Assembly: GCA_001898465.1 (NCBI GenBank)
Contig: MKTX01000017.1
Location: 124,001 to 188,000, forward strand
Length of the DNA stretch: 64,000 nt
Direction: 5' to 3'
DNA from: Sphingobacteriales bacterium 39-19
GTDB taxonomy: Bacteria > Bacteroidota > Bacteroidia > Chitinophagales > Chitinophagaceae
Shown: positions 31,718 to 37,139 of the stretch, one piece after another
Layout of the letters: each line of letters begins with the position of its first letter
Position numbering within the stretch: position 1 is the stretch's first letter
Position numbers and translations under genes: made by a program
The notes under the pieces: model-generated
Told to the model about the DNA's origin: nothing
The model's database searches: none
Seen by the model: the letters and a program-made list of their open reading frames with translations, nothing else

Positions 31718-32980
31718 TTATTCATTTGCCAGTTTCAGAGAATCAAGATCATCAAAAAACCGGGGATACGATTTATTCACGGCTTCGGCATCACTGATCA
31801 TAATAGGTTCCCTGGCTGCTGTTGCCACTACGGCAAGGGCCATCGCTATCCTATGATCCTGGTGTGAATCGGTGGTGGCGGCAAGAATTTGTGTGCCGCC
31901 TTGTATCGTCATACTATTTTGGTGAAGACTGATGGGGATGCCCAATTTTTCAAATTCAATCTTTAATGTTTCAGCCCGGTTGGATTCTTTATAAAACAAT
32001 CTTTCAATACCCTGTATTACCGTTTCACCGGGGCAATAAGCAGCCAGGGCTACGATGGGCGGAAATAAATCGGGGCAGTGAGTGGCATTAAATTGAAATG
32101 GCCGAAGCTGGTCTTTTATTACCCTTATGCATTCGGGTTGTATGGTAACTTGGGCGCCAGCTAATTCCAATACTTTTAAAATATCTTTATCTGCCTGGTA
32201 AGAATGGATGTTTAAACCGGTAACCGTAATATCGCCCAAAATAGCTGCTGCAACAAATAAAAAGGAAGCGCTGCTCCAATCACCTTCTACGGTAAAATCA
32301 ATTTCCTTTTTTTCTTTTTTTTGGGGTGTGATGCTGAACAACCTGTAATCCCGGTGAACAACCCGGTAACCGAATTCCTGTAATAATTGTAAAGTGATAT
32401 CGATATAGGGTTTGCTGCTGAGGTGGGAGACTTCAATTTCGGTACTTTTTGTGGCAGCATGCGCCAGGCTTATGAGCAACCCGGTAAGGAATTGCGAACT
32501 TAGGCTGCCATCTACCTTAATATTTTTTGGCTGCATGGGGCCTTGTACTTCGATGGGTAGTTTCCCTGCATTTGTTTTTATTTTTACCTGTAATTGCGGG
32601 AGCGTATCCTCAAAAAAATACATAGGGCGTTTGGTAAGGCTGCCCGACCCCGTAATGGTCATTTTTTTTGATGATAAAGCTGCTATGCTGGTAAACATCC
32701 GCATGCTTAAACCACTTTCGCCACAATCTAAAATTTGGCTGATGGGATGTATGCCCGTGGATACAATTTCAATACACGCCCCGGGTAAGTATTTTATGTT
32801 GGCTCCTAAGTTTTTTATAATAGCCAATGCGGCTTTATCATCTGCACTATTGCCAGCATTATGAATACGGGTGATGCCTGTGTGCAATAAAGCCAATGCA
32901 CATGCCCGTTGCATTACACTTTTAGAAGCGGGAGCCTGTAGGGTGCCGGATATATACCCGGGGCGTATGCTTATTTTCAC
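31718..32980 (-). CDS. aroA: 3-phosphoshikimate 1-carboxyvinyltransferase (EPSP synthase)
   Basis: 420 aa. It has the two-domain EPSP synthase pattern: N-terminal APASKSVMQRACALA (Lys and Ser contact shikimate-3-P), DCGESGLSMRM (glycine-rich turn), LTKRPM, SSQFLTGLLI, TVEGDWSSASFL and the C-terminal HQDHRIAMALAV. It joins PEP and shikimate-3-P. Last gene of the tyrA-DAHPS-aroB-aroA operon, 39 bp behind aroB. Confidence 0.95.
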   Translation of the reverse strand: MKISIRPGYISGTLQAPASKSVMQRACALALLHTGITRIHNAGNSADDKAALAIIKNLGANIKYLPGACIEIVSTGIHPISQILDCGESGLSMRMFTSIAALSSKKMTITGSGSLTKRPMYFFEDTLPQLQVKIKTNAGKLPIEVQGPMQPKNIKVDGSLSSQFLTGLLISLAHAATKSTEIEVSHLSSKPYIDITLQLLQEFGYRVVHRDYRLFSITPQKKEKKEIDFTVEGDWSSASFLFVAAAILGDITVTGLNIHSYQADKDILKVLELAGAQVTIQPECIRVIKDQLRPFQFNATHCPDLFPPIVALAAYCPGETVIQGIERLFYKESNRAETLKIEFEKLGIPISLHQNSMTIQGGTQILAATTDSHQDHRIAMALAVVATAAREPIMISDAEAVNKSYPRFFDDLDSLKLANE

Positions 32981-33019: not shown

Positions 33020-34045
33020 TTATAATGAGAAAACCATTTCTTTCAACTGTTCCAGGCCAATAGATGAGATGCGCCCCTCGCCAATTTTATTTAGTAAAAT
33101 AAAATCCAGGGTATCTTTTTCTCTTTTTTTATCTCTCAGCATAGTGTCCCAGATTTTTTCTTTATCTCCAAAAAAATCTGTTTGCAAATGATATTGATTC
33201 AATAAAGAAATTACTTTTTCTTTTTCACTGCTATAAAACATATTCATTTCTTCAGAAAATTTACAGGCAGCCGCCATGCCAATGCTGATGGCCTGGCCAT
33301 GCGGTAATTGATACAGGTTTTCAATTGCATGCCCAACGGTATGGCCAAAATTCAATAATTTCCTTTCTTTTTTTTCATATTCATCTCCTTGTACAATTTC
33401 GGTTTTCAGCCTGGCATTTTGTTCAATTAATAAAGAAATCAATTCGGGATTATCCATAAAATTTTCTAACTGCTGTTGCTGGAGGCTTATAAACATAGCC
33501 TCGTCTTTTATACAAGCATGTTTAATGATTTCTGCAAAGCCGTTTATCCACTCTTGTTTGGGTAAGGTTTTTAAAAATGAATAATCAAATACAATGGCAG
33601 CAGGCTGGTACACGGTACCCACCATGTTTTTATATCCTTTCACATTGATCCCGTTCTTACCCCCAATGGCTGCATCCGTCATAGCTAAAATTGATGTGGG
33701 CACCAGGATGAGCTTTATTCCCCGTTTATATATTGAGGCAATAAAACCGCCCATGTCTGTTATTACACCACCGCCTACAGCAACCAGTATAGCATTGCGG
33801 GTGGCTTCCTGTTGCAGTAGCTGATCTATGATGCGGTCAATACCGGCCTGTGTTTTGCTGGATTCACCTGCTTTTTGAACTACACAATGCAGGCCGGAAA
33901 ATAAACCGGCATAATGCATATATATGTTTTCATCAGTAAGAATTATTAAACGATCTTTTTCAAATTGCTGTAAGTATTCGGTTACATGGGCATCAAATAG
34001 ATAACTTACCTGGTTGTTTGAAAAAGTGAAAACTTGTTCTTTCAT
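33020..34045 (-). CDS. aroB: 3-dehydroquinate synthase
   Basis: 341 aa, usual AroB length. NAD-binding GGGVITDMGGFIASIYKRGI (about 90-109), LVPTSILAMTDAAIGGKNGIN, and metal ligands in the NGFAEIIKHACI and LNFGHTVGHAIE segments (His and Glu that bind Zn2+). It turns DAHP into 3-dehydroquinate. Its start shares one base with the stop of the DAHP synthase gene (TAATG), so the two are coupled. Confidence 0.95.
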   Translation of the reverse strand: MKEQVFTFSNNQVSYLFDAHVTEYLQQFEKDRLIILTDENIYMHYAGLFSGLHCVVQKAGESSKTQAGIDRIIDQLLQQEATRNAILVAVGGGVITDMGGFIASIYKRGIKLILVPTSILAMTDAAIGGKNGINVKGYKNMVGTVYQPAAIVFDYSFLKTLPKQEWINGFAEIIKHACIKDEAMFISLQQQQLENFMDNPELISLLIEQNARLKTEIVQGDEYEKKERKLLNFGHTVGHAIENLYQLPHGQAISIGMAAACKFSEEMNMFYSSEKEKVISLLNQYHLQTDFFGDKEKIWDTMLRDKKREKDTLDFILLNKIGEGRISSIGLEQLKEMVFSL

Positions 34046-35151
34046 TATTTTGTTTCTTCCTTTTTTGCATACATAACACTATTTTGCCGGCTGATACTTT
34101 CTAAATGTACGGCATCAAAATAGCGGGCAATAAAGGCAGGGCTCAATCCCAGCTTTATTCCTTTTTGTATTGATTTTTCTAATATCTCATTCCATCTTTG
34201 TGTTTGTAAGATGGTAATATTATTATCTCTTTTATACTCCCCGATTTTCTCGGCCAGTTTCATTCTTTCGGCAATCAATCCTAATAATTCCTCATCCAGG
34301 TTATCGATGCGGGCCCTGAGTTTGGTTAATGCATCCACAAATTCCTGTTCTGAACTTTGTTCAGAACGCCATACCAGGTTATTGAGCATAACCATTAGGT
34401 CGCCGGGTAAAATTTGTTGCTTAGCATCACTCAAGGCTTTGTCAGGATTCGGATGGCTTTCCACCATCAGGCCATGGTAGCCCAGGTCAATACTTCGTTG
34501 TGCTACTTGATGCAGCATATGCCGGTTGCCACAAATATGCGAAGGATCGCAAATCAAAAGCATTTCGGGGTACCGCCTTTTCATTTCAATAGGGATATGC
34601 CACAAGGGGGCATTCCTGTAATTAGAATCACCATACGTTGAAAATCCCCGGTGAATCATACCTATGTTTTTTACATGCACTGCCTGTAATCTTTCTATGG
34701 CGCCGGCCCAGAGTTCAATATCCGGGTTTACGGGGTTTTTCACCAGGATGGGCACATCAGTATTTCTTAATACATCGGCTATTTCCTGTACACTAAAGGG
34801 ATTTACCGTTGTTCTTGCACCGATCCACAAAACATCAACACCCATATGCAATGCTTCTTCCACATGTTTTGCATTTGCCACTTCTACACAAGTTGGCAGG
34901 CCCGAAAGTGAACTGGCCAGCTTAAGCCATTGCAAAGCGATGCTGCCCATGCCTTCAAAAAGCCCGGGTTTTGTCCGGGGTTTCCAAATACCCGCACGCA
35001 ACATGGCTACTTTCCCTGTTGATGCAAGTGCCATAGCCGTTTCTACCAGCTGCTGTTCAGATTCTGCACTGCAAGGGCCACTGATAATAAGCGGCCGTTG
35101 TTGCCAGGTTTTAATAATGGACGGGTTTGTCATTCTATTCATTATTTCCAT
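34045..35151 (-). CDS. Bifunctional DAHP synthase / chorismate mutase
   Basis: 368 aa. Residues about 15-255 form the type I-beta DAHP synthase barrel: ISGPCSAES, MLRAGIWKPRTKPGLFEGMG, MGVDVLWIGARTTVNPF, CDPSHICG. Residues about 275-355 form an AroQ (CM_2) chorismate mutase helix bundle: RARIDNLDEELLGLIAERMKLAEKIG. The fusion links the first shikimate step and the chorismate branch, and the mutase part often acts as the feedback-sensing element. Gene order (tyrA, this gene, aroB, aroA) gives a complete tyrosine-directed unit. Confidence 0.93.
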   Translation of the reverse strand: MEIMNRMTNPSIIKTWQQRPLIISGPCSAESEQQLVETAMALASTGKVAMLRAGIWKPRTKPGLFEGMGSIALQWLKLASSLSGLPTCVEVANAKHVEEALHMGVDVLWIGARTTVNPFSVQEIADVLRNTDVPILVKNPVNPDIELWAGAIERLQAVHVKNIGMIHRGFSTYGDSNYRNAPLWHIPIEMKRRYPEMLLICDPSHICGNRHMLHQVAQRSIDLGYHGLMVESHPNPDKALSDAKQQILPGDLMVMLNNLVWRSEQSSEQEFVDALTKLRARIDNLDEELLGLIAERMKLAEKIGEYKRDNNITILQTQRWNEILEKSIQKGIKLGLSPAFIARYFDAVHLESISRQNSVMYAKKEETK

Positions 35152-35204
35152 TGTAAAGCTATATGAATTAAATAATTGATTCCATTTATTTCAAATCTTT
35201 CTTT

Positions 35205-36047
35205 CTATTTTAATATTCTTCTTACTTTATTGGCTTGCAAAATAAGTTGATGCAATAAAATAAAATTCTCCTTTTCCAGGCAACTTTTAAATTTTCTAAG
35301 TTGGCTGATGTGTTCATTGAGTACATCCAATACATTTTCTTTATTTTGTTTAAAAATGGGTACCCACATATCCGCATGGCTTTTTGCCAGCCTTACGGTA
35401 CTTTCAAACCCGGCACTGGCAAGCTGGAAAATGGTATCATCATCTCTTTCTTTTTCCAATACCGTATTTGCCAAAGCGTAAGCGGCTATATGGGATACAT
35501 GGCTTATATAGGCGGCATGTAAATCATGATCTGCGGCATGCATATAAAGAATAGGCATCCCCAACCGGGTATAAATATTTTCAATAATTTGCCTGGATTC
35601 TTTGCCAGATTTTTCGGCTTCACCAATCACCAGGGTACGGCCTGTAAAGGCTTCTTCGCTGGCAGATTGAGGGCCACTGTTTTCGGTTCCCCACATGGGA
35701 TGGGCGGCTACAAATTGTGGGCGGTGGGGTAGGGTATCTGCCAATTTGCAAATCGCTGATTTGGTAGAACCTGTATCTGAAACTACCTGGCCTTCTTTTA
35801 CTAATGGCATGATAAGTGGCAATAATACCAAAGCCACATCTACAGGTACCGCTAAAAATATAATTTGTGCTTTTTCTATAGCAGGTACCAGGGGTTCCAT
35901 TGTATCTGCCAGGCCCCTTTGCATGGCTATTTTTGCATGCGCCGGGTTATTTTCCACACCAATGACATGCGAGGCAACCCGATGCTTTTTTAATGAGAGC
36001 GCTAAAGAACCGCCTATTAATCCCATACCAATAATGGCAACTTTCAT
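35205..36047 (-). CDS. tyrA: Prephenate dehydrogenase
   Basis: 280 aa. Rossmann motif GMGLIGGSLALSL (7-19), SDTGSTKS and AHPMWGTENSGPQSA (catalytic His region), as in monofunctional prephenate dehydrogenases without an ACT or mutase domain. It converts prephenate to 4-hydroxyphenylpyruvate, the committed step to tyrosine. First structural gene of the operon. A tyrosine-rich leader ORF and a terminator lie directly upstream (36057-36184). Confidence 0.93.
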   Translation of the reverse strand: MKVAIIGMGLIGGSLALSLKKHRVASHVIGVENNPAHAKIAMQRGLADTMEPLVPAIEKAQIIFLAVPVDVALVLLPLIMPLVKEGQVVSDTGSTKSAICKLADTLPHRPQFVAAHPMWGTENSGPQSASEEAFTGRTLVIGEAEKSGKESRQIIENIYTRLGMPILYMHAADHDLHAAYISHVSHIAAYALANTVLEKERDDDTIFQLASAGFESTVRLAKSHADMWVPIFKQNKENVLDVLNEHISQLRKFKSCLEKENFILLHQLILQANKVRRILK

Positions 36048-36056
36048 AATGTGTGT

Positions 36057-36159
36057 AAAATAAAAATCCCGGGCATCTTAATGTCCGGGATTCAAGTTTG
36101 TTTTATTATTTAAAATCATACATACTTGCTCCCGTGACAGCAGTAATAATAAGCAGGAG
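36057..36159 (-). promoter_or_regulatory. Tyrosine attenuator (competing leader hairpins)
   Basis: Read on the minus strand. Segment 1, CTCCTG (36159-36154), can pair with segment 2, CGGGAG (36134-36129). Segment 2 plus flank, CGGGAGCAAGT (36134-36124), can instead pair with segment 3, ACTTGAATCCCG (36097-36086), as an antiterminator: 5 bp + 5 bp around a small internal loop. Segment 3 otherwise forms the terminator stem at 36092-36065. Segment 1 lies inside codons 9-11 of the leader ORF, just before three Tyr codons in a row; segment 2 covers the end of the ORF. A ribosome stalled on Tyr codons would cover segment 1 and free segment 2 for antitermination. A ribosome reaching the stop would mask segment 2 and allow termination. 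This is the trp/his-type logic applied to tyrosine. Not tested. Confidence 0.8.
36065..36092 (-). terminator. Leader terminator hairpin of the aro operon
   Basis: Twelve-bp stem AATCCCGGACAT / ATGCCCGGGATT (one wobble) with a 4-nt loop TAAG, followed on the minus strand by TTTATTTTA. It stands 18 bp before the tyrA ATG, so it would end transcription before the first structural gene unless antitermination occurs. Confidence 0.88.
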
Positions 36160-36184
36160 TATAATATGTAAAATTTATTTTCAT
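36116..36184 (-). CDS. Tyr-rich leader peptide of the aro operon
   Basis: 22 codons, ATG to TGA. Tyr codons stand at 7, 8, 12, 13, 14 and 21, and Phe at 5, so about a quarter of the peptide is tyrosine (core FTYYTPAYYYCC). Random 22-codon peptides should have about one Tyr. It begins about 12 bp after a promoter-like element (TACATTTA) and ends 19 bp before the antiterminator segment. No Shine-Dalgarno site is seen, as expected in this phylum. It probably senses tyrosyl-tRNA charging. It is too short for routine ORF calling. Confidence 0.8.
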   Translation of the reverse strand: MKINFTYYTPAYYYCCHGSKYV

Positions 36185-36196
36185 TTATCTAAAGTG

Positions 36197-36226
36197 TAAA
36201 TGTAGGAAAGCATTTTTAATTTTAAA
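36197..36226 (-). promoter_or_regulatory. Candidate promoter of the aro operon leader
   Basis: On the minus strand TTTA (36226-36223), 18-bp spacer, TACATTTA (36204-36197). Each box differs by one base from the TTTG / TAnnTTTG consensus. The placement gives a very short 5' UTR before the leader ORF. Confidence 0.4.
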
Positions 36227-36269: not shown

Positions 36270-37139
36270 CTACTCAAGTACTCCAAATTTCCCTTCCTGG
36301 AAATCCCGGATTGCCTGGTGGATTTCATCCTGCGTGTTCATAACAAACGGGCCATAACTGGCTATCGGTTCATCAATAGGCTCACCGCTCAATAATAAAA
36401 CAACGCTATCTTTTGTGGCTGTTATCTCTATTTCTTCCCCTTCATTTTCAAATAGCACAAAATTATATTCAGGCACATCGGCATTATTTACTTGTACCGC
36501 ACCATTAATCACCACCAATGCCGTATTGTGGGTAGTGGGAATACTTGCTTTTACTTTTCCATTGGTATGTAAATGAAAATTGATAATGTTTACTGGGGTA
36601 TAGGTTTTTGCAGGGCCTGCAATGTCATTAAATTTTCCTGCAATAACTTTTACGATGCCTGCATTATTTTCTAAAATCACTTCACCCATCATATCCTTTG
36701 TTAAGGCCTGGTAATGGGGCTCTACAGATTTTTTAACTTTGGGTAAATTTACCCACAGTTGTACAAACTCCATCGGGCCGCCTTTTTTTGAAAATTCAGT
36801 TTCATGATATTCTTTATGCAAAATGCCATTACCTGCCGTCATCCATTGCACATCACCGGGATAAATGATTCCATGATTTCCTTTACTATCATGATGCTCT
36901 ACGGCGCCCTGGTATGCAATTGAAACCGTTTCGAATCCTTTGTGCGGGTGTACCCCTACGCCACGTACTGTTTTAGAAGGACCAAAGTCGAATTCAGGTG
37001 CAAAATCAAGCATCAGGAATGGGCTCATCCTGCGTTGAGAAATTCCTGCCCCGGGTATTAAATTAAATACCCTGAAACCATCGCCAACCATATTGGGCAG
37101 GGCAGGGCGGGGTACTATTCTTTCTATTTTCTTTTTCAT
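36270..37139 (-). CDS. Pirin family protein
   Basis: 289 aa double-cupin protein. The pirin N-terminal domain has HPHKGFETVSIAYQGAVEHHD (about 62-82), whose His residues bind a metal, and the GDVQWMTAGNGILHKE segment. A pirin C-terminal domain (about 175-280) follows. Bacterial pirins are quercetinase-like dioxygenases or redox-dependent regulators; which applies here cannot be told. It lies 13 bp after the small response-regulator-like gene on the same strand. Confidence 0.93.
   Translation of the reverse strand: MKKKIERIVPRPALPNMVGDGFRVFNLIPGAGISQRRMSPFLMLDFAPEFDFGPSKTVRGVGVHPHKGFETVSIAYQGAVEHHDSKGNHGIIYPGDVQWMTAGNGILHKEYHETEFSKKGGPMEFVQLWVNLPKVKKSVEPHYQALTKDMMGEVILENNAGIVKVIAGKFNDIAGPAKTYTPVNIINFHLHTNGKVKASIPTTHNTALVVINGAVQVNNADVPEYNFVLFENEGEEIEITATKDSVVLLLSGEPIDEPIASYGPFVMNTQDEIHQAIRDFQEGKFGVLE

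Follow-up and report, generated by a model that had tools for sequence, protein, structure and literature searches.

A candidate tyrosine-keyed leader-peptide attenuator ahead of tyrA in a Chitinophagaceae genome, and its relation to the mixed Phe/Tyr leaders of relatives

The question raised by this locus, which lies in a 64-kb window (the whole stretch of DNA analysed), is how transcription of the tyrA-DAHPS-aroB-aroA operon is controlled. An earlier note on this DNA had proposed a ribosome-mediated attenuator keyed to Tyr. The parts of such an attenuator, a 22-codon leader ORF, an antiterminator pairing and an intrinsic terminator ahead of tyrA, span positions 36184-36059 of the minus strand (Table 1). 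In agreement with the note, translation of the ORF found six Tyr codons again, at codons 7, 8, 12, 13, 14 and 21, together with a single Phe codon at position 5. The terminator hairpin was likewise confirmed, and the stretch that contains it (36110-36060) has a folding energy of -15.3 kcal/mol (z -4.8); its spacing to the tyrA ATG (36047) is 17 nt (36064-36048) and not the 18 nt given earlier. The pairing of segments 2 and 3 (36134-36124/36097-36086), described earlier as an alternative that excludes the terminator, gave a fold of -15.7 kcal/mol (z -3.5) for positions 36150-36085. Because both structures use TCCCG, antiterminator and terminator are mutually exclusive. Their energies in the window are -15.7 and -15.0 kcal/mol, respectively, and in nine other tyrA leaders the two structures lie within ~6 kcal/mol of each other either way.

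Table 1. Positions of the candidate attenuator parts and operon genes in the window, and loci with Tyr-Tyr-Tyr leaders in other records
Feature	Positions	Strand	Remarks
Leader ORF MKINFTYYTPAYYYCCHGSKYV*	36116..36184	-	22 codons, six Tyr; homologous position and geometry in relatives
Control codons Tyr12-Tyr13-Tyr14	36143..36151	-	8 nt upstream of antiterminator 5' strand
Segment 2, antiterminator 5' strand CGGGAGCAAGT	36124..36134	-	within leader ORF; fold and covariation in relatives
Segment 3 ACTTGAATCCCG	36086..36097	-	AATCCCG part doubles as terminator 5' arm; fold, covariation
Intrinsic terminator hairpin (segments 3:4), then T-rich tail	36065..36092	-	fold; same hairpin also listed on + strand
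Candidate promoter -7 box TACATTTA	36197..36204	-	one mismatch to TAnnTTTG
tyrA, prephenate dehydrogenase	35205..36047	-	PF02153, PF20463
DAHP synthase fused to chorismate mutase	34045..35151	-	PF00793, PF01817
aroB, 3-dehydroquinate synthase	33020..34045	-	PF01761, PF24621
aroA, EPSP synthase	31718..32980	-	PF00275
Tyr-Tyr-Tyr leaders at most 165 nt before tyrA			L222, L243, L256, L259, L263, L267, L269, L275-L279, L283, L284, L286, L288, L293, L297, L298

A rarity scan of both strands of the 64 kb, in which we counted ATG ORFs of 12-32 codons that have at least five of one residue (with a run of at least two) and end 10-60 nt before a strong terminator, gave two places, the Tyr leader and a weaker Ser-rich ORF. 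Six whole-window dinucleotide shuffles gave three scan hits in total, none of them with at least six of Y, F, W, H, L, I, T or V. No Rfam covariance model (T-box, Phe_leader and others) matched the 64 kb at its gathering score; the hits were all sub-threshold, the best being His_leader with 21.2 bits against a cut-off of 49.

From these parts we infer how the start site, ribosome stalling, termination and the response to Tyr would fit together. Transcription would start a few nt before the leader ATG. With ample Tyr-tRNA the ribosome would pass the Tyr codons and reach the UGA, where it would cover segment 2; the terminator would then form and RNA polymerase would stop ahead of tyrA. With scarce Tyr-tRNA the ribosome would stall shortly before segment 2, at the Tyr codons, and the free segment 2 would pair with segment 3, so that no terminator would form and tyrA-DAHPS-aroB-aroA would be transcribed. 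We consider it likely, with a probability of about 0.87, that the window element is a ribosome-mediated transcription attenuator keyed to tyrosyl-tRNA, and the comparative results presented below argue for this proposal of the earlier note.

The gene content of the window's genome bears on what the operon makes. No match to prephenate dehydratase (pheA, PF00800) was obtained in this genome, whereas 14 out of 14 control genomes were positive; Phe hydroxylase (PF00351) gave no match either, and only one of the 14 controls was positive for it. The lack of both matches suggests that the operon should serve Tyr and not Phe, and since it holds tyrA it makes the amino acid that would be sensed. This missing pheA match had been overlooked earlier, as had the usual form of the element in the family, which is a mixed Phe/Tyr leader before pheA.

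Because aspAT directly precedes tyrA in most relatives, their leaders were sought before pheA. Nineteen of 20 same-family loci carry pheA-aspAT-tyrA, the other (L033) ending at a contig edge within aspAT, and all 19 have before pheA a short ORF with a run of Phe/Tyr codons, a CCGGGA-like segment and a GC-rich terminator. The terminators upstream of pheA in the family are mostly of the TCCCGG...CCGGGA type. The leader finder favours the ORF richest in Phe+Tyr, and its output thus bears on the split between Phe and Tyr and cannot show enrichment of such ORFs; a false hit at L147 was dropped, and the leader of L111 was read directly.

In a scan of 93 genomes of the genus, tyrA was found in 53, among which G325 has a weak 30% match that was dropped and G303 a fragment; pheA was found in 46. 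With incomplete genomes included, 42 have both genes, 10 have tyrA only (a count that takes in the window's genome and G303), four have pheA only and 37 have neither. Aromatic amino acid auxotrophy thus seems common in the genus, as many of the 37 genomes without a tyrA or pheA match are 95-100% complete. As far as the available stretches reach, tyrA is followed by DAHPS, aroB and aroA in the tyrA-only operons, as it is in the window; in G068, a genome labelled as another genus, tyrA and DAHPS are separated by other DNA. A pheA-only operon type, pheA-DAHPS-aroB-aroA, is present in G372 and G327, which are close kin and were therefore counted as one event.

We scored 69 leaders, 55 from genomes with both genes, 10 tyrA-only, two pheA-only and two of undecided class (G304 and G354). 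The both-gene leaders comprise 39 of the genus (from 42 such genomes) and 16 from elsewhere in the family, and this class includes genomes that have the genes on different contigs (G315, G359 and G193). The 10 tyrA-only leaders, nine in the genus plus that of G068, stand directly before tyrA. Genus members G303, G296, G333 and G378 fall outside the scoring. Left out of the tyrA-only class were five family genomes that have tyrA with aspAT before it and no pheA match (G059, G074, G151, G208 and G210). Five other family genomes have pheA and no tyrA match (G054, G076, G142, G271 and G273); in the first four of these aspAT follows pheA up to the stretch edge, so that loss of tyrA is not established. 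G273 (98% complete) has no leader before its pheA (L147), and neither has L252, a Chitinophagaceae record with tyrA and without pheA nearby, which indicates that a gene split off from the operon can also lose the attenuator.

The codon content of the leaders follows these classes. A common scaffold is present in all 55 both-gene leaders, each of which has at least two Phe and at least two Tyr codons; L285 also has a mixed Phe/Tyr leader. The Tyr share averages 0.43 in leaders from both-gene genomes, 0.84 in the tyrA-only and 0.22 in the pheA-only ones. At most one Phe codon was found in 8/10 tyrA-only leaders, which are that of the window and seven others standing directly before tyrA in pheA-less genomes, versus 0/55 both-gene leaders (Fisher 9e-9, kinship ignored). 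The two other pheA-less genomes keep a mixed leader, with four Tyr and two Phe codons in G316 (98% complete) and three Tyr and four Phe in G355 (77% complete). The pheA-only leaders of G372 and G327 have seven Phe and two Tyr codons. Both synonymous codons of each amino acid are used in the homologous leaders (TTT 241, TTC 66, TAT 169, TAC 105).

The pairings and the geometry were analysed in 73 leaders, the 69 scored ones plus L143, L144, L146 and L148, where the pairing with segment 3 served to locate segment 2. The relatives retain the leader ORF and its position, together with the competition between antiterminator and terminator. Covariation of the antiterminator stem, which the earlier note had proposed to look for, is present as well. 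Complementarity of segment 3 to its own upstream region averaged 17.4, versus 16.1 when the upstream regions of other genomes were swapped in, and none of 5000 permutations reached as high a value (kinship ignored); own complementarity beat swapped in 47 of the 73 rows and no more. Compensated variants include AATCCTGGC/GCCAGGATT in L143, ATCCTC/GAGGAT in L083 and ATTCCGGCT/AGCCGGAAT in L111. The window itself scores 12.0 in the 9-nt segment-3 core, below its own swapped mean of 14.1, because its second helix block (CAAGT/ACTTG) falls outside this core. The leader of L148 (G054), MAHHTSYGTFYFYGYRKV, stands before an entirely different antiterminator/terminator, TCTGAGG/CCTCAGGA, in which complementarity is kept.

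The distance from the end of the Phe/Tyr run to segment 2 has a median of 9 nt (IQR 8-10), and is 8 nt in the window. The stop codon of the ORF ends a median of 14 nt past segment 2 (IQR 13-19); in the window it ends 16 nt past it, counted from the end of the CGGG block, which fits the earlier claim that the stop is placed for a terminating ribosome to cover segment 2. Which segments are covered follows from the usual footprint sizes of the ribosome. A ribosome at the stop would thus cover segment 2, and stalling within the run would keep it accessible, at the last codon of the run only partly.

The fourth element of a classical attenuator, a 1:2 protector hairpin, is weak at best. The CTCCTG (36159-36154)/CGGGAG pairing, said in the earlier note to exclude the antiterminator, is present in the full-length fold of the window leader, but the isolated stretch 36165-36110 folds no better than shuffles (z -0.08). 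Among the 73 leaders the 1:2 pairing score is 11.8 versus 10.5 with shuffled leaders, and is higher in 51/73; folding of the RNA from the ATG to segment 2 is not clearly better than that of shuffles (mean z -0.55, window -0.18, under -1.5 in 12/73). Of the full trp/his-style set of parts proposed earlier, the ORF, terminator and antiterminator thus stand, and in view of the weak hairpin we describe a three-segment design.

The -7 element of Bacteroidota promoters has the consensus TAnnTTTG. An exact copy lies in the 45 nt preceding the leader ATG in 43/73 related leaders versus 3.4 expected, and these exact boxes mostly begin 12-18 nt ahead of the ATG. If one mismatch is allowed, a box is found in 72/73 leaders versus 39.6 expected; the one-mismatch copy of the window is on its own not significant.

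Genomes with neither gene were sampled through the DAHP synthase stretch, which was examined in 28 of the 37 (in two cases with less than 330 nt upstream). An intact leader was found in none of these 28 stretches by ORF list, by eye or with covariance model R1. One of them, L325 (G358, a genome without a tyrA or pheA match), contains at ~462-599 of the minus strand of the locus a fossil leader that lacks a start codon; an intact-looking terminator is kept there and tyrA is cut after ~20 codons. Among the loci collected here model R1 gave 55.5 bits for the window (which is in its training set), 45.5 for the fossil and 23.4 for the next best.

To assess how often the tyrA-only state arose, we used a tree built from TyrA + DAHP synthase (67 rows, of which many have TyrA alone). 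The state needs five changes on this tree, at least three of them on well-supported branches, but grouping all ten tyrA-only rows into one clade was not rejected by an AU test (p 0.40), so that the Fisher value given above overstates independence. The window and G320 are long branches on the tree. The window's TyrA + DAHP synthase (34045-36047) sits far from the other genus members, on a very long branch of 1.53 changes per column. Among three independent pairs an average of 2.6 show the expected shift of the leader and none the opposite one, a number of pairs too small for significance. The label of G068 as another genus speaks for at least two losses of pheA, unless the operon moved between lineages. 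The association of codon and gene content is strong in count, but independent origins are not proven. The Tyr leader most likely descends from the mixed Phe/Tyr attenuator that the family has before pheA-aspAT-tyrA-DAHPS, its specificity becoming restricted to Tyr once the operon had lost pheA and aspAT.

Other explanations of the locus have to be weighed against this. The terminator might merely end the transcript of the pirin gene, the upstream neighbour on the minus strand, in which case the Tyr-rich ORF would be accidental and the tyrA promoter would lie after the terminator. The hairpin is indeed rightly placed to follow pirin, whose ORF ends at 36270, and there is a promoter-like match at 36059-36031, although the scan that found it gave no excess over chance (32 matches versus 33.8 in shuffles). 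What makes this explanation quite improbable is that the set of leader, antiterminator and terminator recurs before pheA or tyrA in relatives with TAnnTTTG boxes preceding the leader, that the antiterminator covaries, and that the intact leader is absent from the examined stretches of genomes that lack both branch genes. For control by a direct RNA sensor, a T-box or riboswitch, in place of translation, nothing speaks except that there is a leader with alternative pairings. We regard it as exceedingly improbable in view of the Rfam searches of the window, of the poor folding of the RNA between ATG and segment 2, and of the Phe/Tyr reading frame that is kept in relatives.

A leader that senses aromatic amino acids generally (Phe and Tyr, or the rate of translation), its Tyr bias being drift, is also unlikely, if slightly less so than the pirin explanation. 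In its favour, the family as a rule has mixed leaders, Phe codons persist in G316 and G355 although neither genome shows pheA, and the window keeps its Phe codon 5, ~35 nt before segment 2. No further Phe codon lies between this one and segment 2, however, whereas five Tyr codons out of six do, three of them adjacent to segment 2. The near-loss of Phe codons from most of the pheA-less tyrA leaders and the gain of Phe over Tyr in the leaders of the pheA-only operons argue in the same direction. We thus retain the Tyr-keyed attenuator as the preferred reading, in which the leftover Phe codon could still provide some response to Phe.

Beyond the family, a pre-pheA leader with at least six Phe+Tyr codons plus a terminator is present in 17 of the 19 scorable loci (of 20) from genomes of the same order or class. 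No such leader was found at 29 further loci, which were chosen for their top pheA scores in the phylum and not at random (28 from other classes, and L181 from the same class). The leader is present at 41 of the 44 pheA-first loci from named records, the exceptions being L257, with 177 nt upstream only, and L270 and L274, in which the upstream part is misplaced or cut. Chryseobacterium, Elizabethkingia, Kaistella and their kin, which presumably form the Weeksellaceae, have tyrA without pheA or aspAT in the stretches examined. Of these loci, 19/33, all in Chryseobacterium or Elizabethkingia records, have before tyrA a leader that contains a Tyr-Tyr-Tyr run and is followed by a terminator of another kind (Table 1). 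In most of them a stretch resembling GGGATAGGGATT spans the stop codon; the terminator is of the CCTCGTCC type, and some copies of the leader also carry one or two Phe codons outside the Tyr run. Before the separate pheA of Chryseobacterium and kin, inspection by eye and of ORF lists detected no Phe leader at 22 loci, which came from a search of 24 genomes; one locus, L314, does contain a Phe-rich ORF that extends across a hairpin. Judged by sequence, the Chryseobacterium/Elizabethkingia element is apparently a second, unrelated Tyr leader. We lean towards the view that Tyr-specific ribosome-mediated attenuators are recurrent in Bacteroidota, with the scaffold retuned by codon replacement (mixed with both genes, Tyr-only without pheA, Phe-rich without tyrA, decayed without both) and with the Chryseobacterium/Elizabethkingia leader as a second origin.

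The classical leader attenuators are enterobacterial pheL, trpL and hisL, which control pheA, trp and his, and the four-segment attenuator of the E. coli trp type includes a 1:2 protector hairpin. The window element resembles them in its short ORF with codons for the end product, in its competing terminator and antiterminator, and in that a stalled ribosome would favour the antiterminator. Unlike them it is keyed to Tyr, has segment 2 inside the ORF and a 1:2 hairpin that is weak at best, and its relatives have a promoter box of Bacteroidota type. A nearer comparison can be made with Flavobacterium psychrophilum, which we take to belong to the same phylum as the window organism. A study of this species describes strong clues that leader peptide attenuation acts ahead of amino-acid operons, as well as a structured 5' element of pheA that occurs in other Flavobacteriaceae genera too and for which no Rfam hit is reported (PMC9723704). 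The description considered here names neither Tyr or Phe codons nor a tyrA case (PMC9723704). As leader-peptide attenuation has thus been reported in a flavobacterium, the window element would be a new specificity of a known kind.

Several predictions concern the same pathway. A figure legend lists two predicted uORFs with F and Y at shikimate genes (PMC6429828, Fig. 6b), and uORFC-13-1 of Acholeplasma aroF is predicted to contain Phe in a paper that also cites an attenuation hypothesis for E. coli aroF (PMC8632094). Like the window element these are predicted leaders with Phe/Tyr or Phe codons at shikimate-pathway genes; unlike it, none is described in these passages as a Tyr-only tyrA leader. 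Bacteroid-trp RNA (RF01692) is given as a candidate cis-regulatory RNA of Bacteroidetes (PMC2864571); its name suggests an association with trp genes, and it had no Rfam match to the window. Small ORFs reminiscent of leader peptides are mentioned for Bacteroides thetaiotaomicron (PMC7366714), and authors writing in 2010 stated that to their knowledge leader-peptide systems had been shown before only in Proteobacteria and Actinobacteria (PMC2965389). In the open-access literature, with subscription papers mostly outside its scope, we found no Tyr-only leader attenuator. The earlier view that a Tyr-keyed leader is no standard described class fits that literature as regards the specificity; leader-peptide attenuation as such has been reported. 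What is said to be a comparative survey by Lopatovskaya et al. from 2010 may contain relevant predictions.

The element probably lets the bacterium switch its tyrosine-making genes on only at low tyrosine. If this is true, tyrosine would join the amino acids that are sensed by leader-peptide attenuation. One genus would moreover offer a natural series (both genes, Tyr branch, Phe branch, neither) in which leader codons can be read against the genes they control, and which would make the evolution of regulatory specificity directly testable. The leader codons would then also hint at which amino acid an uncultured bacterium can make.
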